This document shows, piece by piece, positions 18,210 to 42,588 of a stretch of DNA of 42,812 bases (the stretch's first letter is position 1; the number at the start of each line of letters is the position of its first letter). The stretch is from IMG/VR virus record IMGVR_UViG_3300037316_000011, positions 1 to 42,812 of that record; one strand, 5' to 3'. Source of the stretch: a virus. The translations under genes were made by a program, and so were the position numbers. A model generated the notes under the pieces. It was not told the origin of the DNA. It was given only the letters and a program-made list of their open reading frames with translations, and made no database searches.

Positions 18210-19115
18210 TCACATACTCCCTGCATAACTTAACATACCATCATCCATATCGATATATCCGCATATAGGGCATTGAACATGTGCGCCTTGGATATCATCC
18301 TCATTAATCGTGCTAATAGCCTCACAGGATTCGCATATGAAGTTACCGTCACCATCCTGTATATGCTCAGCTAAAGCTGCGTCTAGCGCCTCAGCGTCAG
18401 TGTCATGCGTGAGCAATAGCGGCTCATCACGCTGTGTCTGATAATACGTGCCGCGTTCCATATAGTGGGTGTGTCCAGCACCCTCTACTACGCGCCCCCA
18501 ACCGCCTTCATATGTTGGCTTATCCTTGAATATGCGCGTGTAATTGTCCTCATAGTTGTTGAACCATCTAGCATTAGTCGCTGGCAAACTATACGTCTGC
18601 GAATACCAGACTCCATTAATCCAATCTCCCATCTCTGCATTGACAAGCTTGAATCTACCATCCCAGGACATTACGCATAATTTGTTATGCGAGCCTATAT
18701 GATCGGCCATTTTGTCCCAATATTCGCTATCAGCTACGTCTGCCATAGGCGATTGATGTTTAACGAATAGCTGCGTATCACTTTGCATACCATTTCTATC
18801 TTCAGGTATGTATTGTCCCAAGATACCGTTATGCATCACATATGCGTCATTCTGAGGTGTAGCAAACGGATGTACATTAGCTAATGCAATACGACCGTGC
18901 GTGGCATAGCGGAAGTGTACGGCAAACTCATGTCCGCCAGCATTCAGGCGCTTGATATGGCGCCAAGCACGCTTAACCATCTTGCTCCCTAGGAATCTAT
19001 GTACGCCTTCGTCTTTAGACATGACTCCTATGCCGTCATTATTATCATGCGCTGCGCATCTCATGTATTCCTCGGGTAATTGCTGCCCTGCGGGCACATA
19101 GCAGATCAAACACAT
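18210..19115 (-). CDS. Class II glutamine amidotransferase (Ntn hydrolase) with C-terminal zinc ribbon
   Basis: In this 301-aa protein, Met1 is followed directly by Cys2, the expected N-terminal nucleophile once Met is removed. HFRYATHG (67-74) and MHNGIL (94-99) match the conserved substrate-binding and oxyanion segments of class II amidotransferases, as does LANVHPF. It should hydrolyse glutamine and pass ammonia to a partner. The partner is almost certainly the amidoligase encoded one base upstream. A C-terminal zinc ribbon (CESC near residue 260, CPIC near 281) is an unusual addition and may contact the partner or substrate. The gene and its neighbour look more AT-rich than the replication genes, suggesting later acquisition. 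Confidence 0.85.
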   Translation of the reverse strand: MCLICYVPAGQQLPEEYMRCAAHDNNDGIGVMSKDEGVHRFLGSKMVKRAWRHIKRLNAGGHEFAVHFRYATHGRIALANVHPFATPQNDAYVMHNGILGQYIPEDRNGMQSDTQLFVKHQSPMADVADSEYWDKMADHIGSHNKLCVMSWDGRFKLVNAEMGDWINGVWYSQTYSLPATNARWFNNYEDNYTRIFKDKPTYEGGWGRVVEGAGHTHYMERGTYYQTQRDEPLLLTHDTDAEALDAALAEHIQDGDGNFICESCEAISTINEDDIQGAHVQCPICGYIDMDDGMLSYAGSM

Positions 19116-19116
19116 A

Positions 19117-20259
19117 TTAGATTTCCTCTTTAATTTGATAGCCTGGTATCTTACCTAGTCGCTTAACGCTCTTAGACTCCGCCAGGAATGCAACTAGATG
19201 CTTATATGTCCCTCGGCGCTTATTGATCCAAGCTAAGAATCCATTATACCCTGTTACATCCTGCATACTAGCATCGCGGCAATAGTTTACCATGGCATGG
19301 CAGAATTCAATATTCTTTAATACGCGATCCGGACGCATATTACCTTTGAATATGCGACATTCAATAGTCTTGGTGCTGACATGCAGCGCTTCATATTTAT
19401 CACTATCTGGCTTTGAGCCGTCGAGTAGCGTCTTAGGTATGCGCTTAGCCCATCGTTCAGGATTACGCTGTGCAATCAGGTTAATCAATGTTGTGTTGGG
19501 TTCACTATTGATAAACACTAGCATCTTGCCGAGCGTAAGCGCGGATATAGCCTTGCGATTGATATGCACGTGCATACCGCAAGCATCTGTGCTCTTACCA
19601 GACATGCCTATATCCTTCACGCTCCCTAATATCTTATCCCACCCAAACGCGCCTTGGTGTGCTTCCAGCGTGTAGGGTAGCGTAATCAATTCAACGCCGG
19701 ACTTATTGAGACTGCCATCACACATGAGAATGTATGTGCCATTACCATCGCGCCCATCAAGGGCGCTGGACAGCTCTTTCATACCATCCTTACTTTCATC
19801 TCTAGTATGTTCCATCTCCAGCTCAACACCAAAGCATAAACTATTCTTAGGGGTAATAGCGGGCCATCCATGCGTATCTAATACATCGGTATCGTGATAT
19901 TGATAGATAGCATCACTATGCGAGCCATTCTCATCATCATATGTATCTCTATCCGACGCATATTGGAACCATAGGTCACTATTCTCTGATGATTGATAGC
20001 AGTTATGACGCCTGTAGCTCAGGGATATATAATCCCCATCACTACCGTCGCCGCGTAGCGTACATGCTGAACTACTGTCAATGAGGGTTTCCTGTATATC
20101 AGAGTATATATAGTTAGCAGCGCAACTCTCACATATTATGTCGTTATTCTCTGTCTCATAGAATGAGATTACATCACTATCATATGCTTCGCCACAATCA
20201 GGACATGTCCGCATATTGACTAGCTCATCATCATCCTGTTGTTCTACGGTGGCGCTCAT
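19117..20259 (-). CDS. Amidoligase (glutamine synthetase-like COOH-NH2 ligase) with N-terminal zinc ribbon
   Basis: In this 380-aa protein, residues 19-46 form a zinc ribbon (CPDC and CESC). From about residue 143 it carries the Amidoligase_2 type signatures: FGVELEME (143-150), a CDGSL...GVELITLP strand pair, CGMHVHINR, and TIECRIFKGNM, which supply the Glu, Asp, His and Arg residues used for Mg-ATP and carboxylate activation. Such enzymes join an amine or ammonia to a carboxylate. With the amidotransferase one base downstream it forms a two-gene amidation unit. The target could be peptidoglycan peptides, a protein or a small metabolite; the sequence does not say. The start overlaps the upstream stop (ATGA). 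Confidence 0.75.
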   Translation of the reverse strand: MSATVEQQDDDELVNMRTCPDCGEAYDSDVISFYETENNDIICESCAANYIYSDIQETLIDSSSACTLRGDGSDGDYISLSYRRHNCYQSSENSDLWFQYASDRDTYDDENGSHSDAIYQYHDTDVLDTHGWPAITPKNSLCFGVELEMEHTRDESKDGMKELSSALDGRDGNGTYILMCDGSLNKSGVELITLPYTLEAHQGAFGWDKILGSVKDIGMSGKSTDACGMHVHINRKAISALTLGKMLVFINSEPNTTLINLIAQRNPERWAKRIPKTLLDGSKPDSDKYEALHVSTKTIECRIFKGNMRPDRVLKNIEFCHAMVNYCRDASMQDVTGYNGFLAWINKRRGTYKHLVAFLAESKSVKRLGKIPGYQIKEEI

Positions 20260-23494: not shown

Positions 23495-25057
23495 ATGTTA
23501 AAGTCTCTAGGTGGCAGTGGCGGCGCAGGCACCGTATCCCAGATTACCAGTACGGGTGGTACGATCACGGTTTCACCACCTGGTGGAACTGGTATAGTTG
23601 ATATCTCACTTCCAGCAAGTGGCGTTACTGCCGGCTCATATACGAATGCAAATATTACTGTCGCTGCAGATGGTATCATTACTGCTGCACACAGTGGCAG
23701 TGGTGGATCTGGAACTGTTACCAGTGTCTCGGTAGTCTCTGCTAATGGTCTAGCTGGCACAGTCGCCACGGCCACTACAACTCCTGCAATCACGTTGAGT
23801 ACTACTGTTACTGCACCAGTATTAGCAGGTAATGGCACCGCGATTATCGCGGCGACTACTACAGGCAGTGGTGCTGTTGTTCTTGCCAATTCCCCAAGTC
23901 TAACGACACCAGCCCTGGATACGCCGTCATCTCTCATTCTGACGAATGCAACAGGTACGCCTGCTTCTATTGGCTTGGCGAACGGTACAGGACTGCCTCT
24001 TGCAACTGGTGTCACAGGAACGCTAGCAGCTGCACAATTTCCAGCACTCACAGGTCCTGTAACGACGACTGCTGGTTCTCTTGCCACTTCTATTAATCTA
24101 GCAGGTGGAAGTATATCTGGCACATTACCTGCCGGTAATGGCGGTTTTACTGCAACGATTGTGCAGATATTTACTGCCAACGGTACTTGGACAAAACCCG
24201 TTGGTGCGGTAGCAGTTAGAATATTTGTAGCCGGTAGCGGCGGCGGGGGCGGTTCAGGTGCCCTGGATGCCACGGCAGTACTAGCGAGTGGCGGAGGTGC
24301 GGGCGCAGGCGGGGGCTTCTCTATAACAGACTATCCCGCATCAGCACTCGGTGCGACAGAATCTGTATTTATAGGTTCAGTGGGGACAGGCGGTGCAGCC
24401 GTCTCCTCCAATGGGCCAGGTAATACAGGTACAGCAGGGGGCGCGTCGGCCTTCGGTGTGTCCGGTAAGGCTTGGGGCGCCGGGGGCTCGGCAGGTGCTG
24501 GTGGTCAGGCTGCCGGTAACTCTGGCGGTGGCGGCGGTGGGAATACTCTTCTTGCTGGCAGCAATACTGGAACCAACGGTACTAGCAGTGCAGGTGGCAA
24601 CGGCGCTTTTGGCGCTGGAAGCGGCGGTTTTGGCACTGTAGGGGTTAGTGTCTCTTTCACTGGGGGCGGTGGCGGTGGCGGAGGTGGACTCAGCGGTGGC
24701 GTCGGCCAAATAGGCGGCGTATCTATGTGGGGGTCGCCTGGTGGGGGTAGCGGCGGTGGCACATCAACGGTCGCCGCCTTTGCTGGAGGGCAAGGCGCCA
24801 TTAATTCATGGGGGAACAATTACACAGTAGCCGGAGCAATTAACGGTAACGGCAACACTGGAACTAGTTTAGATCCCTGGTCTCCTGGGAGCGGAGGCAG
24901 CGGCGGCGGCGGAAGTATTACTACGAATGGCGGTACGGGCGGCGCTGGTTTTCAAGGATCTGGGGGTGGCGGTGGTGGTAGTGCTGTAGGAGCCTTCTCC
25001 AGCGGTGCTGGCGGCAATGGCGGTATTGGCATCATTGTCGTGAAGACGTTCTTTTAA
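23495..25057 (+). CDS. Glycine-rich tail fibre / adhesin
   Basis: In this 520-aa protein, residues about 1-220 are beta-rich Thr/Ser/Ala repeats of fibre type (TVTSVSVVSANGL and similar). Residues about 228-250 (FTANGTWTKPVGAVAVRIFV) are the common entry to the phage glycine-rich domain. Residues about 250-505 are packed with GGGGG and GGNGG motifs compatible with polyglycine-type adhesin folds, and the C-terminus GGIGIIVVKTFF is the usual closing strand. It probably binds a host surface receptor; the Gly loops would be the variable tips. It begins an adhesin block extending to 30356. Confidence 0.8.
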   Translation: MLKSLGGSGGAGTVSQITSTGGTITVSPPGGTGIVDISLPASGVTAGSYTNANITVAADGIITAAHSGSGGSGTVTSVSVVSANGLAGTVATATTTPAITLSTTVTAPVLAGNGTAIIAATTTGSGAVVLANSPSLTTPALDTPSSLILTNATGTPASIGLANGTGLPLATGVTGTLAAAQFPALTGPVTTTAGSLATSINLAGGSISGTLPAGNGGFTATIVQIFTANGTWTKPVGAVAVRIFVAGSGGGGGSGALDATAVLASGGGAGAGGGFSITDYPASALGATESVFIGSVGTGGAAVSSNGPGNTGTAGGASAFGVSGKAWGAGGSAGAGGQAAGNSGGGGGGNTLLAGSNTGTNGTSSAGGNGAFGAGSGGFGTVGVSVSFTGGGGGGGGGLSGGVGQIGGVSMWGSPGGGSGGGTSTVAAFAGGQGAINSWGNNYTVAGAINGNGNTGTSLDPWSPGSGGSGGGGSITTNGGTGGAGFQGSGGGGGGSAVGAFSSGAGGNGGIGIIVVKTFF

Positions 25058-28406: not shown

Positions 28407-28589
28407 ATGGCAGATACACATAAAGTTGGTTCATTCCAAGGTAAGTCTAATGAACTTGGGCATGGTGGCCGTGCGGCCCAATTGAAATCGCAAGGAGTTC
28501 CGGGCGGGGTCATAGGGGCTATTGCGCGATCAAAGCACGCAGGACCGGGGCAAGTTAATTACCATTCTGGTCACCACAAGGGTGGCTAA
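28407..28589 (+). CDS. Small Gly/His-rich late protein
   Basis: The 60-aa, basic product is Gly/His/Ser-rich and ends in HKGG, like the KGG endings of two other small late genes. It starts 4 bases after the previous stop. No fold predicted by eye. Its 3' end overlaps the small terminase gene by 8 bases. Confidence 0.6.
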   Translation: MADTHKVGSFQGKSNELGHGGRAAQLKSQGVPGGVIGAIARSKHAGPGQVNYHSGHHKGG

Positions 28590-28977
28590 AACCAAATCCG
28601 CAACCTCTTGGGTTCCTGGAAAATCCGGTAACCCGAGAGGTCGGAGACCAGATGTTCGGACGATCAGCGTCCTAAAGAATGATCTTGAGTTATGCGTACG
28701 TGAACATCTGTCTGCGACAAAGGTGACACAAGTCATCAATCGCATGCTAGCAATTGCCACAGAAAGTAAAGATGAACAGGCAGCTATCGCTGCGAGCAAA
28801 GTCATACTCAATATGGCAGTGAGCAAAGCACACGTACAAGAACAGCAATCTGGCCGGACTGGTTTCACAATCGTGATCGAGAATGCAACGCTACAGGCGT
28901 TGACAAAACAACAAGAAAAACCTGTAGACGCATCGTACAAACAAATCGAGGTAGATTCAAATGGCATCGGCAGCTAA
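28582..28977 (+). CDS. Terminase small subunit-like protein (DUF5681 type)
   Basis: This is 131 aa from GTG 28582. An N-terminal PGKSGNPRGRRPDVR motif matches the G-x-SGNP-x-GRP hallmark of DUF5681 proteins, which sit beside large terminases. It is followed by helices with LKNDLELCVREHLSA and QVINRMLAIATESKDEQAAIA. The motif is likely DNA-contacting. A TTG at 28522 would give a longer form without support. TerL is 2 kb downstream, with adhesin-type genes in between, an unusual separation. Confidence 0.7.
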   Translation: MAKTKSATSWVPGKSGNPRGRRPDVRTISVLKNDLELCVREHLSATKVTQVINRMLAIATESKDEQAAIAASKVILNMAVSKAHVQEQQSGRTGFTIVIENATLQALTKQQEKPVDASYKQIEVDSNGIGS

Positions 28978-29329
28978 AGAAGTAAATGGTAAAGCGTTCA
29001 CCACGCCAAGTGGTGATGTGGGTGGCGGGGCGCGAGAAGCTGCCTCATCTAAGGGACCGAGTGGCGCCTATAAAGAACAAACTGGTCCCAGTCCTAATGG
29101 TCGCGAAGGTTGGACTGGCGGCTATTCTGACACGGACTGGTTGGGTAATCCAGCGAATATTAAGGATAGGCAATTCGCCTCTGAAGGCGGCAAAGCCTAC
29201 AATGATCCTGTGAATATTGCTTGGCCTGTGAATGAAGTGGAAGCAGACATCTACATGGTTCCTGACTTCCAGGAAGCATCTGGACAGGGCGCAAATCAAA
29301 GTACTCTGCGCCCGATAGGGAGCACCTAA
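28961..29329 (+). CDS. Hypothetical hydrophilic late protein
   Basis: The 122-aa product is Gly/Ser/Pro/Asp-rich and mostly disordered, with a charged NIAWPVNEVEADIYMVPDFQ stretch near the end. Overlaps the terminase small subunit gene by 17 bases. No motif. Confidence 0.55.
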   Translation: MASAAKEVNGKAFTTPSGDVGGGAREAASSKGPSGAYKEQTGPSPNGREGWTGGYSDTDWLGNPANIKDRQFASEGGKAYNDPVNIAWPVNEVEADIYMVPDFQEASGQGANQSTLRPIGST

Positions 29330-29330
29330 C

Positions 29331-30356
29331 ATGTTGCAAACTAGACAAGTACTTGATGTTTATCAACAACTCGAAGTTAGCAAGTCCGGTCTTATAACTC
29401 CGGGTGCTATTGCTGGTGGAAGTTCTGCTAACCAGGTAATGACACTATTAGGTGCCGCAGGCACTTTTGGTGTGTTGGCTGGTTCTACTACTACTAACAC
29501 TGGTACTACAACCATACAAGGTGATGTAGGCGTATCTCCCGGTACGTCCATCACTGGGTATAATACGGCGACTATCACAGGCGCCTTTCACTCAGCAGAT
29601 ACGGTTGCTGCAAATGCACAACTTGGTCTAACTGCTGCATATAACTATGCCGCATCGCAGATCAGTACGGGAGCAATTGTCGCCGATCTCGGTGGACAGA
29701 CACTAACTCCTGGTGTCTATACTACGGCTAGCGGTATCGGTATTACTGGCACGCTAACGCTAAATGCGCAGGGCAATCCCAACGCTATCTGGATATTCCA
29801 GGCGGGCAGTACACTGACGACAGCTTCCAATAACAGCAATATTGTATTGACTGGCGGAGCCCAGGCTGGCAATGTCTACTGGCAAGTTGGCAGCAGTGCT
29901 ACACTTAATGGTGGTGCTACTAGTAACTTTATTGGTACGATACTGGCTCTTACATCCATTAGTGTATCAGCTGTCTCGCCAGCTATTAATGGTCGATTAC
30001 TTGCACGCAATGGCGCAGTTACGTTGATTACGACGACACTTACGCAACCCACGTCTACGAGCAGCGCATCTGGTACTGTCTCCAGTGGTTCCTTTAATAT
30101 ACTTGTGCCATTCTATGTGGGTAACGGTTCAACACAATCTCCGGCTATCTTTCCGGCCACGTTTGCATTAGGCGACGATCTTAAGATCATTGGGCCAGCT
30201 AGCGCCCTGCTTAATGGTATCAGAATGGAAGGTAGTGTTTCTCCCATTCCTGGTTCAGCCTATGTGACTTGGGTTAATGGTACGGGTACTGCTATTACAC
30301 CAGTTGCTGCATCTTACACGGCTATTGCAATTCGTATTAATCCTGAACTGCTCTAA
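29331..30356 (+). CDS. Ice-binding-like (DUF3494) virion protein
   Basis: In this 341-aa protein, residues about 40-235 match the DUF3494 ice-binding-like beta-solenoid. Visible are FGVLAGSTTTNTG, TTTIQGDVGVSPGTSITG, DLGGQTLTPGVYTTASGI, PNAIWIFQAGSTLTT and QAGNVYWQVGSSATL, and the final GRLLARNGAVTLI with TTTLTQP. The remaining 100 residues are a Ser/Thr-rich linker and a beta domain (FNILVPFYVGNG to the end), perhaps the virion anchor. In bacteria this fold binds ice or serves as an adhesin. In a phage adhesin block it more likely decorates the particle or binds a host surface polymer. Ice activity is not shown by sequence. Confidence 0.75.
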   Translation: MLQTRQVLDVYQQLEVSKSGLITPGAIAGGSSANQVMTLLGAAGTFGVLAGSTTTNTGTTTIQGDVGVSPGTSITGYNTATITGAFHSADTVAANAQLGLTAAYNYAASQISTGAIVADLGGQTLTPGVYTTASGIGITGTLTLNAQGNPNAIWIFQAGSTLTTASNNSNIVLTGGAQAGNVYWQVGSSATLNGGATSNFIGTILALTSISVSAVSPAINGRLLARNGAVTLITTTLTQPTSTSSASGTVSSGSFNILVPFYVGNGSTQSPAIFPATFALGDDLKIIGPASALLNGIRMEGSVSPIPGSAYVTWVNGTGTAITPVAASYTAIAIRINPELL

Positions 30357-30968: not shown

Positions 30969-32330
30969 TTGACACAACCGACCCTGAAGATAAGTCTGCA
31001 TCCAGCGCAGGCTGCTATATTCAACTCGAAAGCACGCTTCGTAGTGTGTGCGGCAGGCCGCCGGTTTGGCAAGTCATGGTTCGCTAGTGTAAAACTAGGA
31101 ATCGCAGCCTTAGCGGAGTCTAATAGATTTGGACACAAACTTACCGCAGAACAGCCAGTCTACTATGTTGCTCCAACATTTGACCAAGCTGTCAGAACAA
31201 TGCGACCTAAGCTTATCCGACTACTGGGCTGGAGTCGCGATGGCGGCTTCATTGCTAACGAAAATATCAACGGCGGCTGGATCGAACTCATCAATGGAGT
31301 CAAGATATACCTAAAAGGGGCTGAGAATGACGATGCTCTCCGGGGCGAGGGTAACAGGTTGGTGGTTCTGGATGAGTATGCCTCCATGGCTCCACATGTA
31401 TGGCCCGAGATCCTTGAACCTACTCTTATGGATGTTGAGGGCGACGCTCTCTTCATAGGTACGCCAAAGGGCAAGAATCACTTCTACAGACTCTTCATGG
31501 ATGCATTAACGCATCCTGAACCATACTGGGATGATTGGGAAGCCTTTCATTTCAAGTCAAACGATAACCCATTCCTGAAAGAGCGCGAGTTAAAGCGCAT
31601 AGTCAGTCGAATGAAAGGAGCGGAAGGACTTGACCCAAGAGACAGGAACAAGCAAGAGATCGAAGCCGACTTCATATCTGGCGGTTCGCGCATCTTACGA
31701 CCAGACTCCTTCCCTATTGTTAAATCGTACAACTCTAGAACTGCTCGCTATTTCGTTACTGTCGACCTTGCCGGCTTCAAGAAGGCCGAAGGGAACCAGA
31801 TTCTCAAGACTGATGAATCGGTTGTCGCGGTTACAGCGACAGACGATGACATGTGGACAGTTCTCCGAATACGACATGGACATTGGGAAGTCAGGGAAAC
31901 AGCCACGCAAATCCTTCTGGCGTGCAAGTCCTTCCCAGGTAGCAGACTGGGGATTGAAGAAGGCGCCCTTGAAGCGGCAGTCAGGCCCTACTTAGAAGAT
32001 TTGATGAGGGCGTATTCCCGCTACGTCAATATCGAACCTCTCAAACATCACAATGCACGGAAACAGGATCGCATCAGTTGGGCGCTTAGCGGACGTAGCG
32101 AACGCGGACTCATCCAGCTCCTCACAGATCAACCCGAAGCGTACGACGGGCCAAGCATCCAGCCCTGGAACCGCTGGCTGCTCGATCAAATCTCAGATTT
32201 TCCAGACCCTCTCTCACATGATGACGGACTCGATGCCCTCGCATATGTTGATCAGATTGCAGAAACTTCCTACACTGATACGACTGACATCCCTGAGTGG
32301 TCTGCTTTAGATTCGTATTCGGGTTACTGA
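30969..32330 (+). CDS. Terminase large subunit
   Basis: This 453-aa packaging ATPase/nuclease has Walker A AGRRFGKS at residues 29-36, Walker B RLVVLDEYA near residue 133 with Asp and catalytic Glu, and IGTPKGKNHFYRLF as the coupling motif. The C-terminal RNase H-like nuclease shows VTVDLAG, IEEGAL and SHDDGLDALAYVDQI with the expected acids. It would bind portal and small terminase and cut concatemers. TTG start at 30969 supported by GGAGAG 6 bases upstream. The stop overlaps the HNH gene (TGATG). Confidence 0.95.
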   Translation: MTQPTLKISLHPAQAAIFNSKARFVVCAAGRRFGKSWFASVKLGIAALAESNRFGHKLTAEQPVYYVAPTFDQAVRTMRPKLIRLLGWSRDGGFIANENINGGWIELINGVKIYLKGAENDDALRGEGNRLVVLDEYASMAPHVWPEILEPTLMDVEGDALFIGTPKGKNHFYRLFMDALTHPEPYWDDWEAFHFKSNDNPFLKERELKRIVSRMKGAEGLDPRDRNKQEIEADFISGGSRILRPDSFPIVKSYNSRTARYFVTVDLAGFKKAEGNQILKTDESVVAVTATDDDMWTVLRIRHGHWEVRETATQILLACKSFPGSRLGIEEGALEAAVRPYLEDLMRAYSRYVNIEPLKHHNARKQDRISWALSGRSERGLIQLLTDQPEAYDGPSIQPWNRWLLDQISDFPDPLSHDDGLDALAYVDQIAETSYTDTTDIPEWSALDSYSGY

Positions 32331-32731
32331 TGCTCTGCCGTATTTGTAAAATAGAAAAATCATCTGATGATTTCTATCTTCGTCCTGATAGCAAGAGCAA
32401 TAAGCGGCGTACAGAATGTCGTCAATGTCTAATTGCTAGTCGTGTAACACAACGACCCAAGACTAAAGAACAGAATAGAAAATATCTGGTTGAAAGTTAT
32501 GGTATAACTCTCGATGACTATGAGGTTATAAGAGTCAAACAAGAATTCCGTTGTGCCATCTGCGGATTACACGAACAAAACAATAGGCACGGTCGATTAT
32601 TCATTGACCATGACCATGACACAGGAAAGGTACGCGGTTTACTGTGCAATGATTGTAACACAGGCGTAGGTAAATTTAGAGATAACCCTATGCTATTACA
32701 TAAAGCAGCAGTTTACGTGGAAGGCAAGTAA
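32330..32731 (+). CDS. Endonuclease VII-like HNH protein
   Basis: The 133-aa product starts ATG 32330 in the TerL stop. The N-terminal CRIC and ECRQC pairs form a zinc knuckle. FRCAICG, then FIDHDHDTGKVRGLLCNDC and NTGVGKFRDNP match the recombination endonuclease VII family of beta-beta-alpha-metal nucleases (His-Asp-His active site with Cys4 zinc). Possible roles are branch resolution at packaging, or a free-standing homing endonuclease lodged between TerL and portal. The tight coupling favours a resident function. Confidence 0.8.
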   Translation: MLCRICKIEKSSDDFYLRPDSKSNKRRTECRQCLIASRVTQRPKTKEQNRKYLVESYGITLDDYEVIRVKQEFRCAICGLHEQNNRHGRLFIDHDHDTGKVRGLLCNDCNTGVGKFRDNPMLLHKAAVYVEGK

Positions 32732-32733
32732 CC

Positions 32734-34833
32734 GTGTCGCTATTCCCGACCCAAGGTAACTCCATATTGGTGGAGAGCCGCGATAGTATTGCAGCAGATA
32801 GACAGAAAACAAGACCTTACGAACCAGGATCGGCCCTTTGTGGGTGGATTTACAGTAGAGTAACTATCTGGGAAGACACCAGAAACCGGGGCTATATGCA
32901 GCTCTGGGGCGAGTACTGGCGCATGTGGCGCGGTAAATGGTCCATACAAGAGATCAACAGACTGTCTGAACGGTCTAAGTTGATTATGCCTGCCCTGTCA
33001 CAAGCCATTGAGCAGACAGTTTCGGAGATAGAGGAAGCTGTATTCTCCAAAGCTGAATGGTTTGATGTGGCCGTTGAAACGGCTAAAGACATGGCAGCAC
33101 TTGCTATGCGAGACCAGTTGCTCTCGGATCTGGATAAAGTCAATGCTGCCGATCAGATTATGGAAGCAGTACTTAATGGAGCTATATTTGGCACTATGGT
33201 CGCCAAGGTTAACACAAGTCTCCAGAGTGACCAGAAGCCAGAACGCGACCCTATTACCTACGCCCTCAAAGCAAAAAACAAAGAACAAGTCCAAGTTGCT
33301 ATTGAGGCCATACGGCCTGACCAGTTTATACCTGATCCTTCAGGTACGACTATTCAGAACATGCTGGGATGTGCTCATCGTGTTCAAAGAACCGTCAACT
33401 ACATCGCTGAAAAGTGTCAGCAAGGTATCTATAACAAAGACGCGCTAGGTCAGGTATTCCCTACGCGTAGACTCAAGAATTCGGATGTGGATTTGGAAGA
33501 CCCCATGTCTGTCAATACGACCTATGAAAGCGAGCAGTGTGACATTATCGAATACCACGGTAAAGTCCCTGCTCGTTTTCTTTTGCAGTGCACAGAAGCA
33601 CGTAATATTGCAGATGAGTTACTGAAGCTTGATGTAGAAGAGATTGAAGAACGTGGTGGTAATGGCCCTATGATAGAGGCTATTGTCACACTTGCCAACC
33701 AGGGTATACTCCTGCGCGCCATACCTAATCCGTTTACATTGACGGATCGTAGTATTGTTGCAGCGCAGTTCGAGAAAGTACCAGCACGATTTTGGGGAAG
33801 GGGTGTAGCAGAAAAAGGCTATAACCCGCAGAAAGCGCTAGACGCAGAAGTAAGATCCAGAATGGACGCATTGGGTTATATCTCCGCACCCATGTTAGGT
33901 GTGGATTCCGGTAGAATCCCGCGTGGCTTCAAAATGGAAGTCAAGCCTGGCAAGGTGTGGTTAACACAAGGCAACCCAGACGAGGTACTTCGTCCTTTCC
34001 CCGCTTTAAATTTCAACACCATGACGTTCCAGCAGGCTTCGGAGATGGAGCGCATGGTACAGATGGGCACGGGAGCATTAGATGTTGCATCTGCTATCAA
34101 GAATCAATCTCAGTCTGGGGCTAATAGCATGTCTAGCAATAGCATGCTTATGGGCGCTTTTGTTAAGAGATCTAAGCGTTCTATCGCGAACATATCGCGC
34201 AACTTTATCGGCCCTCTACTTCAGAAAGTTATTTGGCGATACATGCAATTCGATCCCATCCGATATCCGCAGGACTTTGATATCAAACTCAAGCCGACGC
34301 TGGGCATTGTTGCGCGCGAGGTAGAAGCTGGGCAGATGACGCAACTCATGGGAATGATGCCACAGGAGTATCACCAAGTTCAGTTATTGCTGGCTAAGGG
34401 CGTTATAGAACATACTGCTTTGAGTAACAAGAGCGAGTTATTGCAAGCTATTGAGCAGGCATTACAACCCCCACCGCCAGAAGAACAACAGAAGCAGAAA
34501 CAAATGCAAGACTTAGCCCAACAAGCTCAGGTAGCCGGGCTGCATGCACAGGCTATTGGTTATCAGTTGACCAATGAAAAGACCAAGGCAGAGATCAAGA
34601 AGATCCTGTCCGATGCTGGTAAGAAGGGTCATGAAGCTAATATCGAGGATACTAAGGTACAGCAAGAGTGGGCGCGCATCCAGGCGTCTGGTCAGGAAGC
34701 TGAGCAGTTTGCCGATCAGAATAAGATTGCAGCGGCTCGTCTACCGATTGAGTGGTTGGTGGCGCAGGCTAAGATGATCTCAGCTAAAGCACAGGAGCAT
34801 ACGGCAAAACATCCGCCCGTTAGGGCGAAGTAA
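32734..34833 (+). CDS. Portal protein
   Basis: This 699-aa protein has the size and sequence style of podovirus portals: helical N-terminal body, IRPDQFIPDPSGTTIQNMLG (the D-P-x-A/G region), a long wing, then NPFTLTDRSIVAAQFEKVPA and RFWGRGVAEKGYNPQKALDA, and a long helical C-terminal part rich in Gln/Lys (QKQKQMQDLAQQAQVAGLHA), the likely barrel. It forms the dodecameric DNA gate and contacts the terminase and tail adaptor. GTG start after AAGG. The strongly helical last 150 residues are longer than in minimal portals. Confidence 0.9.
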   Translation: MSLFPTQGNSILVESRDSIAADRQKTRPYEPGSALCGWIYSRVTIWEDTRNRGYMQLWGEYWRMWRGKWSIQEINRLSERSKLIMPALSQAIEQTVSEIEEAVFSKAEWFDVAVETAKDMAALAMRDQLLSDLDKVNAADQIMEAVLNGAIFGTMVAKVNTSLQSDQKPERDPITYALKAKNKEQVQVAIEAIRPDQFIPDPSGTTIQNMLGCAHRVQRTVNYIAEKCQQGIYNKDALGQVFPTRRLKNSDVDLEDPMSVNTTYESEQCDIIEYHGKVPARFLLQCTEARNIADELLKLDVEEIEERGGNGPMIEAIVTLANQGILLRAIPNPFTLTDRSIVAAQFEKVPARFWGRGVAEKGYNPQKALDAEVRSRMDALGYISAPMLGVDSGRIPRGFKMEVKPGKVWLTQGNPDEVLRPFPALNFNTMTFQQASEMERMVQMGTGALDVASAIKNQSQSGANSMSSNSMLMGAFVKRSKRSIANISRNFIGPLLQKVIWRYMQFDPIRYPQDFDIKLKPTLGIVAREVEAGQMTQLMGMMPQEYHQVQLLLAKGVIEHTALSNKSELLQAIEQALQPPPPEEQQKQKQMQDLAQQAQVAGLHAQAIGYQLTNEKTKAEIKKILSDAGKKGHEANIEDTKVQQEWARIQASGQEAEQFADQNKIAAARLPIEWLVAQAKMISAKAQEHTAKHPPVRAK

Positions 34834-36600: not shown

Positions 36601-37650
36601 ATGGCTACTGCATTAGTTCTCAGCAATGACATTGCGACAAGCCTCACTGGTGGCCCTGGTAGTCCTAATGACGTCCATGCCGCTAATTTCGTTCCCGCAT
36701 TGTGGAGCGATGAAGTTGTCGCCGTATACAAATCGAATTTGGTTCTTGCCAATCTAATTCGTAAGCTGAATCATAGAGGCAAGAAAGGCGATACTATTCA
36801 CATTCCGACGCCAGCTCGTGGCACGGCAGTGAACAAGGTCGCGCAATCGGTTGTTACACTACAGCCGTTTGTCGATCAGTCAGGTGTCGGTGGTATCACT
36901 ATCACCATCAACAAGCATAAGGAATACTCGCGCTTGATTGAAGACATTGTTGACGTGCAAGCACTGCCTTCCCTGCGTCGGTTCTATACGGACGATTCGG
37001 GATATGCAATTGCGAAGCGCGTTGATAGGGATATCTTCTTCCAGTTGGCTTCTGGTACGGCGGTCGCCGGTCCAGCCGGAACTGCGATTGAAGATCCTGC
37101 TACGGGTAACGTGTTGGCCTCCAGCACGTGGCAACCGTATGCCGGTGACGGACTCACGATCTGGAATCCTGCGGCTAATGCCAATGTTGGTAATGCTACG
37201 GATTTGACTGATCTGGGTATCCGTCGAGTCATCCTAAAGCTAGACCAAGTTGATGCGCCGATGGCGGCTCGTTACCTAGTCCTGCCTCCGGTGGCTAAGG
37301 CTCTCCTATTGGGCGTTGCGCGTTTCACGCAGCAAGCGTTCACTGGTGAGGCTGGTCCTGGCAATAGCATTCGTAATGGCCTTGTCGGCAATGTGTACGC
37401 TGTTGAAGTGTACGTGTCCAATAACCTTCCGAACGTGTTTGCAGCGAATGGTACGGTTGGCGGATCAGTTGCCTGGCTGTTGCAGCGGGATGCTACTGTT
37501 CTAGTTGAGCAAATGGGTATCCGTACTCAACAGCAATATAAACAAGAGTTCCTGGCGGACTTGTTTACTGCTGATATGATCTACGGTACTGGTATGCTGC
37601 GCGGCGGTTCTGCCGTTGGCATCATCACCAATAACCTGTTGGATGCCTAA
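36601..37650 (+). CDS. Major capsid protein
   Basis: This 349-aa protein opens with the HK97-fold style of podovirus coat proteins: FVPALWSDEVVAVYKSNLVL and KKGDTIHIPTPARGTA, then a spine helix region LVEQMGIRTQQQYKQEF near the end and GMLRGGSAVGII. It is followed immediately by an intrinsic terminator-like hairpin, as expected for a gene needing the highest late expression. Ribosome site AAGAG is weak. Confidence 0.92.
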   Translation: MATALVLSNDIATSLTGGPGSPNDVHAANFVPALWSDEVVAVYKSNLVLANLIRKLNHRGKKGDTIHIPTPARGTAVNKVAQSVVTLQPFVDQSGVGGITITINKHKEYSRLIEDIVDVQALPSLRRFYTDDSGYAIAKRVDRDIFFQLASGTAVAGPAGTAIEDPATGNVLASSTWQPYAGDGLTIWNPAANANVGNATDLTDLGIRRVILKLDQVDAPMAARYLVLPPVAKALLLGVARFTQQAFTGEAGPGNSIRNGLVGNVYAVEVYVSNNLPNVFAANGTVGGSVAWLLQRDATVLVEQMGIRTQQQYKQEFLADLFTADMIYGTGMLRGGSAVGIITNNLLDA

Positions 37651-37853: not shown

Positions 37854-38906
37854 ATGGCTGCGGTTACGCTGAGACAAATGCTGGTCAAGGTGCTCACCAA
37901 TATTGGTGAACCGCAGCTTGCTGCCAATGTCCCAGCAATAGGTCAACCTATTACAGATGTGTATGAGTTGCAGCTCTGCAACTACATCAATCACATAAAA
38001 GAAGAAGTTGAACAGACACATCAATGGTCTAGCCGCTGGCAAACGTATACTATGTCCTATGTGACAGGCAATCTGTCGCAGCAGATATACGATCAAGGCG
38101 GTTTCTTTTTACCGGCAGGGGCGACGCCGAACTCTGGTTGTCAAGTAGTACGGCTACACAATCCTAAGTTTAATCGCGAAGTAGCCCTTGTCTTTGACAT
38201 CACTACATTCGGCATCCCGTTCGTACTAGATGAGATGCCCTTGCCAGATATCATGTACTATAACACCGTACTCAATCAGACGCCTGTGGCGTATAGTACG
38301 AACTTCACTGTACAGGATCTAGGTAATGATGTAGTTCAATTGCTGATGTATCCCGGTGCTAATACCACACGGAATATACAGATTACACTATATAATCCAC
38401 AGAGTTATCTGGACCCTACTAATGGTGTAGGCAATCAGACTGATCTGTGGAATACGGGAACCGTACTACAGTCCCTTAATACAAGTCCATCTTTCGGGCA
38501 ACTATCCGGTGGCCTTGTGGCACCGTGGCTACTCCCTTCTGGCGTCTTTCCAATAACGTTTAGCGGTCAAGCAAGTACAGGACAAGGCAATGTTACCCAG
38601 ACCCTCAACGGGACGTTCACGCAAGGAAGCACAGCAATCGCTTTTGGAACATCTCTATTGTACAATATTCTTAGTGCTAACATTAATATTGCTGGGCTCT
38701 ACAGTGGTGGTATGGGGGCTGATAGCCCTATCATCGTACCTTCAAGAGTCGTAGAGATAGGTACGAGTTGGTGGGCATTAGAGGAAAGAGGCGAGGAGTT
38801 AGGCGCCAATTCGATGTTTACAGAGGATAGATATCGTAGATCATTGGATGACTTGGCTACCAAGGATCGGGCCATGCAGGGCGATCTGGTGATGGTTGTT
38901 GCGTAA
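37854..38906 (+). CDS. Tail tubular protein A / T7 gp11-like adaptor
   Basis: In this 350-aa protein, the N-terminal helical part (TLRQMLVKVLTNIGEPQLAA, VYELQLCNYINHIKEEVEQT) and C-terminal helices (FTEDRYRRSLDDLATKDRAM) match the gp11-like head-tail adaptor. An inserted beta segment lies at about residues 215-275 (FSGQASTGQGNVTQTLNGTF, then TQGSTAIAF). It would ring the portal and support the nozzle. Confidence 0.8.
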   Translation: MAAVTLRQMLVKVLTNIGEPQLAANVPAIGQPITDVYELQLCNYINHIKEEVEQTHQWSSRWQTYTMSYVTGNLSQQIYDQGGFFLPAGATPNSGCQVVRLHNPKFNREVALVFDITTFGIPFVLDEMPLPDIMYYNTVLNQTPVAYSTNFTVQDLGNDVVQLLMYPGANTTRNIQITLYNPQSYLDPTNGVGNQTDLWNTGTVLQSLNTSPSFGQLSGGLVAPWLLPSGVFPITFSGQASTGQGNVTQTLNGTFTQGSTAIAFGTSLLYNILSANINIAGLYSGGMGADSPIIVPSRVVEIGTSWWALEERGEELGANSMFTEDRYRRSLDDLATKDRAMQGDLVMVVA

Positions 38907-39229
38907 TGAGTGTCGATCACAGATACTCCCTATTACAGCAGTATCAGACTAATGTCCATATTACGACGCAACCATACACGCTTATTGGCACTGATTCTGG
39001 GCGCGCATTTACTAACACAGGAGCCCTCGCTTCTACCACGATTACACTACCTAAAGCCGCACCGAGCCTTACATACGTATTTCTCGGAAATGCGGCATCC
39101 CCTCTGGTAGTGCAGCCTAAAGTTACTGACACTATAAGAGGATCATCTGTAGGAGTGGCAACCTCCCTAACTGCCGGTGTAGTGCTAACACTACTCTGTA
39201 TAACACCGGGATTCTGGGAGATTATGTAG
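38906..39229 (+). CDS. Small beta-rich tail protein
   Basis: The 107-aa product is made of short beta-strands (TTITLPKAAPSLTYVFLG, LVVQPKVTDTIRG) typical of tail or fibre accessory domains, and ends just before the nozzle gene (TAGTG overlap). No catalytic motif. Confidence 0.6.
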   Translation: MSVDHRYSLLQQYQTNVHITTQPYTLIGTDSGRAFTNTGALASTTITLPKAAPSLTYVFLGNAASPLVVQPKVTDTIRGSSVGVATSLTAGVVLTLLCITPGFWEIM

Positions 39230-41703
39230 TGCCTTCTTCTCTAGCACGTATACCAATCAATAAACAGTTGCAGATACTGGACTTGGTTACGCCTGGGAAC
39301 CATGGCGTCAATACGGTACAAGCAGCCAGTTTGCTCGATCCATCGTACTGCATAACGGCTAATAATGCAGTTATTGATACGAGTGGACGTCTAGCTGCTA
39401 GGGGCGGTGTAGTCACACAGACTACTGTTCCTGTAGGGATAGACGTAAATCTGTTCCCTTTGGCCGGAAATAGTGGACCGTCGTTGCTGCTGCACTTTGA
39501 TGGCACTAACGGACAGACCAGTACAATTGATTCATCGACAAATAATTATACGATGACTAATGTTAATGCTGCCTCTCTCTCTACAACGACTCCAGAATTC
39601 GGCAGTGCTTGTGGCAATTTTGGACCTAATAGTGGTAGTGGTTGGTATGTTACAGCGGCGCAAGCAGGTCCAGGTAGCCCACTCGACCTGCACCAAGCCG
39701 TATTCACAGTTGAAGGTTGGATGCGAACAACCACGACCGCTACTGGTAGAATATGGAGCGATCTAACCTTTCCTACTGGTGACACCTCTTATATACGTGC
39801 TTACTCAAGTGCTGGCACTGTAGCAATGCAGGCCAACTTTCCTACTGCCGAGACCTGCGCTGGTCCTGTCAGTATCAACGTATCAGACGGTAACTGGCAC
39901 CATTTTGTATGTTCGGCCGACCCTTCTGTAGGTTGTGGTGTTGCTATTGATGGTACGTGGGGACCTCTTAATACTTATTCATTTGATACAGCGCCGATGA
40001 CTTCGCCGCAATGCATGCAGATCGGGTTCGACGGTCTCACTGGCATTCAGAATAATGCATTCGTCGGTCAACTCGATGAGTTGCGTATTACCAAAGGTAC
40101 TGTTCTTTATCCTATCGGTACTAGTTTTACGCCGCCATCTGCACCATTTAGCAGTGCGATTGCCAATTTACAAGGACAAACTTCTGGTTTCCTGGCAACG
40201 CCGTGGGCTGGGCTAAGCGGTGTTTATACTATTCTGTGGGATACAGGACAGCAGACGACAGGGACATTTGTCAATGGTAGTGCGCTCGTCACATGGACAC
40301 CTGCACTATTCTCTTCTACAGCGGGTTCAGGCGTAGTCCTAACTACGCCAATCCTGACCAGCTTTGAATATAACATGGGCAATGGTACCTATCAGGAGAT
40401 TGTAGCCTGGTCTGGAGGTATAGCCAATAGTGTTATCAATCCCATGGCTAATGAGATACAAGGATCTGTCAATGTCACTAATGGACAATGGTACTTCCAG
40501 AACTTTAATAACAAAGTCATTGGACTACAAGCCGGTCAGAAGCCGATTGTATGGAACGGAAGCGGGAACTTCGCTACAGTTGTGGAATCTGCTGGTACAG
40601 CGCCTAGCGGGGGAATTGGCACGAGTGCCTTCGGCAGGATGTGGGTCGTTGGGACAGATGGACAAACGATCCAATATTCCGGGCTATTAGATGAGACTGA
40701 CTGGAGCACCACAGATGGCAATGCTGGTCTCATCGACATGCACACTATCTGGTCTAATGGTACAGACACAGTTACGGCTATTGCCGCATTCAACGCCTCT
40801 CTTGTAGTGTTCGGTACGAACCATATTGTCTTCTTCACAGATGGACGAGGATCGCTACTTGGCTTAGATCCAACACAAGCATACGTATTTGATACGATCT
40901 TCAATACGGGATGCTATAGTCAGTGGACAGTACAGAATATAGGTCAAGGTGATATGCTGTTCCTGGGACCTAACGGTGTCCAGAGTCTCAGCAATCTTTC
41001 CACTTCGCGAGCATTCCCGCAAGGCAATGTCACTAAGTACATACGCGATACGCTACTATCACAGGTAGCAGCGGAAACTACTGCTACAGTCCGCAGTACC
41101 TATAATACCTATTTGGGACAGTACTACTTATCTCTACCCACTACGGGTGTCATCTGGTGCATAGACATGCGCCGCAAGTATACGGATCAGATGGGTGATA
41201 TGTGTGCTGTATGCACACAGTGGCTTATGCGTGTTACAGCTATGAATACGACGCACGCTAACATAACCTATTTTGCCCGTACACAGGGTCTTATTGGTAT
41301 CTATTCTGGCAATACTGATGAGGGTGTTCCATTCATCTTTAACTATCTGTCTCCCTGGCTCAATCTGGGTGAACAGGTAGCACAACATTTGAAAATGTTA
41401 AAGCGCATGGAAGCCATTATATTCACTGGTGGTGCGCAAGAAATAACGTTTCTGTATAATACAGATTTCAATAAGACTGCCCAGACTGTCATGATACAGG
41501 TTACAGCATCTGGACACAACTCCCAGTATGGCATTGGGCAATATGGATTAGCTCAGTATGGTGGCGGATCTACATTAGCCCTTATCAAATATCCTTCGCA
41601 TGCCCGAGGGCAATATTATCAGGTAGGCATCACTTCTACCGTATCTAATCTCTTTTCTCTTCAACAGATCCAACTAGCTGTCAAGGTTGGTAGAGTAGCG
41701 TAA
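39229..41703 (+). CDS. Tail tubular protein B / nozzle with LamG-like insertion
   Basis: This 824-aa protein resembles the T7 gp12 family in length, position after the gp11-like gene and beta-propeller-like sequence (VVFGTNHIVFFTDGRGSLLG). Residues about 80-305 form a concanavalin/LamG-like jelly-roll insertion (SLLLHFDGTNGQTSTIDSST, VFTVEGWMRTTTTATGR, NWHHFVCSADPS, AFVGQLDELRITKGT). This may bind glycans at the tail tip. GTG start overlaps the previous stop. Confidence 0.82.
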   Translation: MPSSLARIPINKQLQILDLVTPGNHGVNTVQAASLLDPSYCITANNAVIDTSGRLAARGGVVTQTTVPVGIDVNLFPLAGNSGPSLLLHFDGTNGQTSTIDSSTNNYTMTNVNAASLSTTTPEFGSACGNFGPNSGSGWYVTAAQAGPGSPLDLHQAVFTVEGWMRTTTTATGRIWSDLTFPTGDTSYIRAYSSAGTVAMQANFPTAETCAGPVSINVSDGNWHHFVCSADPSVGCGVAIDGTWGPLNTYSFDTAPMTSPQCMQIGFDGLTGIQNNAFVGQLDELRITKGTVLYPIGTSFTPPSAPFSSAIANLQGQTSGFLATPWAGLSGVYTILWDTGQQTTGTFVNGSALVTWTPALFSSTAGSGVVLTTPILTSFEYNMGNGTYQEIVAWSGGIANSVINPMANEIQGSVNVTNGQWYFQNFNNKVIGLQAGQKPIVWNGSGNFATVVESAGTAPSGGIGTSAFGRMWVVGTDGQTIQYSGLLDETDWSTTDGNAGLIDMHTIWSNGTDTVTAIAAFNASLVVFGTNHIVFFTDGRGSLLGLDPTQAYVFDTIFNTGCYSQWTVQNIGQGDMLFLGPNGVQSLSNLSTSRAFPQGNVTKYIRDTLLSQVAAETTATVRSTYNTYLGQYYLSLPTTGVIWCIDMRRKYTDQMGDMCAVCTQWLMRVTAMNTTHANITYFARTQGLIGIYSGNTDEGVPFIFNYLSPWLNLGEQVAQHLKMLKRMEAIIFTGGAQEITFLYNTDFNKTAQTVMIQVTASGHNSQYGIGQYGLAQYGGGSTLALIKYPSHARGQYYQVGITSTVSNLFSLQQIQLAVKVGRVA

Positions 41704-42588
41704 ATGTCCAATTATTATCAAACTACGTTCTTTACTCCTAAAGACTTCCTACCTGCCACAGATCCTAATAAGACGATCTTCGGTGCGGCATACGATATAG
41801 AGTTCGGGAATATCTCTACGGCTGTTGCTACTAAGTTAGACTCTGTATCTATAGCAACACTACCTATAAACTTTGCCATTGGCACGGTAGGAGTGCCAGG
41901 TATCTCCTTCGCTACTAAGTTTGGTACGGGACTATCTAGTAATGCCACTGGTGATCTTAACTTTTCAGTTAATGGCATCCTACAGGCATCTCTACCCGTA
42001 GTTGGCGGATTGACTATGGCTGGCGCCACTGGCGGTGCACAGGGCATTGGTACCATTAATGCTACGGCTATATACGTAAATGGGGTACTAATAGGGGGCG
42101 GTGGGGGAAGTTTTGCTCCGCTGAATAGTCCAGCATTTACTGGTATACCAACGGCGCCCACAGCCTCGCTCGGCACTAATACGGCGCAGTTAGCTACAAC
42201 TGCGTATACGATGGCGCAGATAGCAAGTAGCGTTGGTACATTTGCAACACTGAATAATCCATCCTTTACAGGGATTCCTACAGCGCCTACAGCTGCGAAT
42301 AGCACTAATACTACGCAGATTGCTACGACAGCGCAGGTCTTAGGAACAGTCACTGCCGCATTAGCGAACTTTCCGGCTAAGATTTATACGGGAGTCTTTA
42401 CCTGTATCAATGGTACAACTGCCGTCTCATTTGGTCATACATTTATTAGTAACCCGTCAGTGTTTGTCCAATGGGCATATACCTCTCCTTCGGTGGGTTA
42501 TGTTGCATCAGGGTCTGTAACTACTACGGGTTTCAGTTATACCAATTCTAATAGTGGTACGTGCTTCTGGCTGGCAGTTGGAAACTAA
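41704..42588 (+). CDS. Tail fibre with two collar-type repeats
   Basis: In this 294-aa protein, two tandem repeats at about residues 135-170 and 180-215 share the pattern F-x-LN-x-P-x-FTGIPTAPTA followed by NT(A/T)Q(L/I)ATTA. This pattern is frequent in phage fibres. The C-terminus is a short beta domain (YTGVFTCINGTTAVSFGHTF). The N-terminus YYQTTFFTPKDFLPATDPNK suggests a tail-attachment segment. Confidence 0.8.
   Translation: MSNYYQTTFFTPKDFLPATDPNKTIFGAAYDIEFGNISTAVATKLDSVSIATLPINFAIGTVGVPGISFATKFGTGLSSNATGDLNFSVNGILQASLPVVGGLTMAGATGGAQGIGTINATAIYVNGVLIGGGGGSFAPLNSPAFTGIPTAPTASLGTNTAQLATTAYTMAQIASSVGTFATLNNPSFTGIPTAPTAANSTNTTQIATTAQVLGTVTAALANFPAKIYTGVFTCINGTTAVSFGHTFISNPSVFVQWAYTSPSVGYVASGSVTTTGFSYTNSNSGTCFWLAVGN

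Follow-up and report, generated by a model that had tools for sequence, protein, structure and literature searches.

The sequence that we analyzed is IMG/VR record IMGVR_UViG_3300037316_000011, 42,812 bases in length and here called the window, which comes from an uncultivated tailed phage. Its first ~127 bases are repeated at the end of the record, and this terminal repeat suggests that the genome is complete or nearly so. As listed in Table 1, the plus strand carries a packaging and virion module with terS, TerL, portal, major head, tail-module, and tail fiber genes; the minus strand encodes a DNA polymerase A, a KaiC/RecA-type ATPase, a Toprim protein, and a 5′-3′ exonuclease-like product. 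Also on the minus strand, at 18210 to 20259, two adjacent genes gave weak matches to class-II glutamine amidotransferase (E 7e-4, under the cut-off) and Amidoligase_2 (E 1.7e-5), a pair that might act in peptide or cell-wall modification. No close TerL was found among named phages, all of which fell below 60% identity (best ~29%). In IMG/VR we detected a large group of phages related to the window, with identities of 88% for the best TerL and up to 95% for the major head protein.

Several further features of this phage group were recorded along the way. Between the TerL and portal genes, at 32297 to 32731 on the plus strand, lies a gene for an Endonuclease VII (PF02945 E 6.5e-23), possibly a homing endonuclease. 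A 520-aa glycine-rich protein is encoded at 23495 to 25057 (plus strand) in a GC-rich stretch (59% versus 48%), and a glycine-rich ORF resembling it was found just 5′ of TerL in L078 (3612 to 4634). Third-position G+C is low across 29331 to 30353 of the window (0.24 to 0.39 depending on the part, against ~0.5 in the TerL, portal, and head genes). In L016 (10780 to 12511), the major head gene is split near codons 31 to 39, with ~640 nt between the pieces, in what looks like an intron or mobile element insertion.

Table 1. Features of the window that bear on the DUF3494 gene and its setting.
Feature	Coordinates	Strand	Evidence
Terminase small subunit, terS (DUF5681)	28522..28977	+	PF18932 E 7e-7; phrog_2538 E 8e-5
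Conserved small gene, 122 aa, immediately 5′ of the DUF3494 gene	28961..29329	+	60-69% identity, same place in relatives
341-aa protein, small phage carrier with inserted DUF3494	29331..30356	+	PF11999 E 1.4e-53; alignment with 17 carriers; carrier HMM E 8.9e-15 over whole ORF
Carrier N-terminal part, residues 1-32 (helix and first strand)	29331..29426	+	tblastn to L014, L010, and L013, E 1e-4 to 5e-3; 17-carrier alignment
Insertion with linkers, residues ~33-252	29427..30086	+	Gap in 17/17 aligned carriers
DUF3494 (PF11999) domain, residues 48-237	29472..30041	+	Profile search; structure matches
Carrier C-terminal part, residues 253-341 (remaining beta-sandwich)	30087..30353	+	Carrier HMM i-E 6.4e-14
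Small gene conserved in relatives; overlaps the DUF3494 gene at its stop codon	30356..30568	+	59-77% identity in L005, L019, L025, L022
Terminase large subunit, TerL	30969..32330	+	PF03237 E 2.7e-7; phrog_2 E 3e-34
Portal, SU10-type	32734..34833	+	PF23899 E 8e-13; phrog_332 E 2.8e-30
Major head protein	36601..37650	+	phrog_267 E 6e-40
Tail-module protein with Laminin_G_3 at 39688-40095	39229..41703	+	PF13385 E 5.2e-9
Tail fiber protein	41704..42588	+	phrog_2631 E 3e-18

The gene under study lies between those of the small and large terminase subunits, where a preliminary description of this DNA had placed it, and the phage structural setting given there holds. That description had also read a DUF3494 solenoid pattern over some 200 residues and suggested a PF11999 search as a check. 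The search bore the pattern out with a score of 182.1 bits, far above the cut-off of 28.7, and a match over 207 of the 208 profile positions; the same search of 14 control genomes returned no match. Among solved structures, the best match of the ORF was the ice-binding protein EfcIBP (6EIO; phmmer E 5.7e-44), which was also matched by the AlphaFold2 model of the window protein (Foldseek E 4.6e-15, TM on target 0.79). The model had a mean pLDDT of 73, with values mostly above 80 in the solenoid and low ones in both linkers, and it shows a helix at residues 91 to 109 together with strands, as in the discontinuous beta-solenoid with a long helix that solved DUF3494 members have. The domain is 46% identical to EfcIBP and 43% identical to AnpIBP, and its nearest cellular relatives (~51 to 64% identity) belong mostly to Actinomycetota, e.g., Streptomyces. 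It shares the full-length domain and the predicted solenoid of the DUF3494 ice-binding proteins EfcIBP, AnpIBP (7BWX), and SfIBP_1 (6BG8). Those proteins are secreted or tethered, however, whereas the window domain interrupts a loop in a phage protein that has no signal peptide (maximum mean hydropathy over 12 residues, 0.98 within the first 35).

The ORF starts with ~32 residues and ends with ~89 residues of a different phage protein family, which the preliminary description had overlooked. In related phages, the slot just 5′ of TerL is occupied by a protein of ~115 residues, which we call the carrier, in one to three tandem copies (three in L010, L014, and L016). When aligned with 17 carriers, the two flanking parts of the window protein showed 21 to 38% identity with a single interruption, and all seven invariant residues were kept. 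We defined the insertion by aligning the window protein and carriers alone; adding many DUF3494 rows pulled the carriers onto the solenoid. A profile built from 19 carriers, with the window excluded, matched the C-terminal part with 58.8 bits, compared to at most 16.7 bits in 2000 shuffles; the N-terminal match was weaker, with a tblastn E of 1e-4 at best. The window protein is thus a carrier with DUF3494 inserted in one loop, and its relatives have the carrier without the insert.

The fusion of carrier and DUF3494 was seen in one genome only. PF11999 matched none of 83 related records, many of which are fragmentary, and scans of viral contigs with single carriers returned only contigs that were already known. 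IMG/VR contigs are metagenome assemblies, and a fusion found once might have arisen by misassembly or recombination within the contig. We consider such an artefact extremely improbable, however, as the reading frame is open over both joins, both halves of the carrier and all of its invariant residues are intact, and the G+C content of the insert (0.495) is similar to that of the genome (0.483).

The carrier itself gave no significant family match in Pfam or PHROG. Its model is a small beta-sandwich (pLDDT 84), in which the insertion point falls between strands E14-21 and E34-43. Of known structures, it most resembles the C-terminal beta domains of phage tailspikes and depolymerases, with VIA Z scores of 7.4 for Kp32gp38 and 5.6 for HK620, and in BFVD it matched phage proteins (E 1e-4 to 1e-3) that are stand-alone products of ~105 to 125 residues from uncultured phages. 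Neither Foldseek nor VIA-align yielded a solved structure that is convincingly equal to the carrier (Foldseek PDB E ~0.1; Z below 8). With such middling scores, the predicted resemblance to tailspike domains is a lead rather than proof: sequence identity to the Kp32gp38 and HK620 domains is only 8 to 15%, the carrier, in contrast to these domains, is a stand-alone protein of ~115 aa, and the likeness may only reflect a common arrangement. The carrier gene is located in the terminase cassette and not beside the tail genes, which, like the lack of a family match and the middling fold scores, counts against the binding-module reading given below.

How a solenoid can enter a loop is suggested by its topology. 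The coils of DUF3494 are ordered 1-6-5-4-3-2, so that the two chain ends are neighbors (PMC7277481). Since its N-terminal coil is thus adjacent to its C-terminal one, we infer that the domain can enter a loop with the carrier left unbroken, and that it could also be circularly permuted.

We also surveyed DUF3494 in other viruses. The preliminary description had called the domain unusual for a phage structural protein, which is accurate for named phages: tblastn with three DUF3494 queries against 50,697 records, run with the BLAST low-complexity filter on, returned no match. PF11999 likewise did not reproduce the ice-binding-like homologue reported in the literature for Synechococcus phage S-SKS1. 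The statement does not extend to uncultivated phages, as relatives turned out to be encoded on at least 136 IMG/VR contigs when a small DUF3494 alignment served as the query. All 50 of the whole records tested passed the PF11999 cut-off, and 11 of the 50 have a Terminase_6N gene. Genes adjoining the viral DUF3494 matched families of major head, head decoration, head maturation protease, tail fiber, and baseplate proteins, as well as endonucleases and others. In several cases, the domain is part of a recognizable structural protein. One 2326-aa ORF matched baseplate J (phrog_6 E 8.5e-23, PF04865 E 9e-12) as well as PF11999 (E 1.5e-35), and a 943-aa tail sheath protein (L239; phrog_279 E 9.7e-28) contains an unpermuted DUF3494 at residues 416 to 597. 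In five further sheath homologues (L247 to L251; records G113, G128, G114, G110, and G121), the domain is circularly permuted and sits at a different site from that in L239, with profile positions ~34-52 to 190-195 coming first and 1 to ~46-82 following (39-190, then 1-46, in L249, where the insert spans residues 160 to 371). With permuted halves joined, the large phage records G110, G113, and G128 each carry four DUF3494 domains in three different large proteins. In the open-access PMC literature that we searched, no paper reported DUF3494 as part of a phage structural protein.

We built a tree of 103 domains, in which the viral sequences clustered, with 7 label changes compared to 33 expected by shuffling. 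The domains of one phage-only group come from sheath, baseplate, and other carrier proteins, a distribution consistent with a single module that moves between phage proteins. The window domain stood by itself on a long branch among mostly bacterial sequences, a placement that was not strongly supported; its insertion thus looks like a separate one. Overall, DUF3494 in phages has the appearance of a module for surface binding that is reused on virus particles.

The published reading of viral PF11999 genes differs from this. Three such genes on Arctic viral contigs were proposed to be auxiliary genes for host cryoprotection (PMC11515562), and a product of this kind would shield the host from freezing. 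These vOTU genes belong to the same Pfam family as the domain studied here, but in our data the domain lies within phage proteins. We applied a simple hydropathy rule to a nonredundant set of 62 viral DUF3494 proteins whose start could be read. A signal-peptide-like start was present in five, as a cryoprotective product would have it, and absent from the other 57, several of which are sheath or baseplate proteins. The scarcity of signal peptides argues against host cryoprotection (PMC11515562), at least for these proteins. For the window protein, we rejected a secreted, auxiliary-gene product on the lack of a hydrophobic start; the protein is moreover fused into a phage-specific protein and encoded in the packaging cassette, and protection of the host is a very unlikely function for it.

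A different question is whether the insert binds ice. Were it a true ice binder, particles adsorbed to ice might stay with ice-associated hosts or survive freezing. In keeping with this, the closest structural match, EfcIBP, is an active ice binder, and S188 and T191 of the window protein align with S153 and T156 of AnpIBP, whose mutation cuts thermal hysteresis to 17% (PMC7277481). We compared these residues with a view to the regular Ser/Thr rows that an ice binder would have on its flat B face. The matching residues are weak evidence for ice, however, because the VGSSATL stretch is widespread across the family, and the window protein has a 2-residue insertion right after this stretch and another close by. 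Moreover, the predominance of Actinomycetota such as Streptomyces among its nearest cellular relatives speaks against ice binding, as does the occurrence of DUF3494 proteins in the tropics and hot springs (PMC7783341). On balance, we regard ice binding by the insert as a minority possibility. We give similarly low odds to the broader proposal that uncultivated tailed phages of freezing habitats repeatedly build DUF3494, in part as circularly permuted copies, into sheath, baseplate, and small surface proteins and thereby adsorb to ice or other ordered nonhost surfaces.

The setting in the window offered a further comparison. The preliminary description had placed the gene inside an adhesin block, which is partly correct; the genes adjoining it match no family, but the 824-aa product of the gene at 39229 to 41703 does contain a Laminin_G_3 domain. 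This domain is in the N-terminal third of the protein. Relatives keep residues 4 to 69 and ~318 to 824, and their middle part is shorter or absent, either lacking Laminin_G_3 or containing other short segments. The presence of this domain in a variable middle region suggests a wider tendency of the phage group to change binding-type domains within loops of its virion-module proteins. This supports display of the DUF3494 insert on the particle. In another tail-module protein of the window (37854 to 38906, plus strand), residues ~190 to 287 are missing from the more distant L022, L024, and L025, in an apparent loop insertion.

Phage Ig-like domains are a useful parallel. Those of lambda gpV, T5 pb6, and YSD1 face outwards and have been proposed to bind surface carbohydrates weakly (PMC8718954). 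They and the DUF3494 insert are both accessory domains grafted onto structural proteins, but DUF3494 has another fold and lies within a loop, whereas the Ig-like domains are appended at the C terminus. Some Ig-like/FN3 tail domains are dispensable, as in SPP1 (PMC8718954), and the DUF3494 insert could, like these deletable domains, be a structural spacer or particle stabilizer that has no ligand; the permuted sheath copies, which form part of an assembly protein, would fit such a role. We nevertheless judge a ligand-free role rather unlikely, as DUF3494 is a flat-faced binding fold in the cases studied and the window phage has the lectin-like Laminin_G_3 in another of its proteins.

Taken together, these data suggest that the DUF3494 insert is probably a binding module held in a loop of its carrier and turned outwards on the virion, analogous to the phage Ig-like domains. 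Three lines of evidence make the carrier a putative virion component, namely the position of its gene, the tailspike-like fold of its model, and the finding that other phages have DUF3494 within sheath and baseplate proteins. The carrier would then be part of the particle, and the domain would face outwards and bind. In the arrangement that we propose, the beta-solenoid interrupts the loop that follows the first strand of the small beta-sandwich. The core of the carrier would be anchored on the particle, with the solenoid displayed on the outside, and the flat face of the solenoid would attach the virion to a surface with a repeating structure, such as the host envelope, exopolysaccharide, mineral, or ice. 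Given the analogy with Ig-like domains, a role in attachment is plausible, and we consider an ordered polymer or cell surface a likelier target than ice.

These results move viral DUF3494 from antifreeze cargo for the host towards the protein machinery of the phage itself. They also provide objects for experiments in the form of a sheath protein, a baseplate protein, and a small carrier whose versions in closely related phages either have or lack the domain. In the permuted sheath copies, nature offers a clean case of how a solenoid can be adapted for insertion into a protein that assembles. Should the domain bind to ice or to an ordered polymer, it would be a dedicated phage tool for environmental attachment, and adsorption to ice, if true, would give the phage a hold on its environment rather than on its host. 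Such attachment would in turn bear on how well phages survive in freezing habitats and on their encounter rates there.
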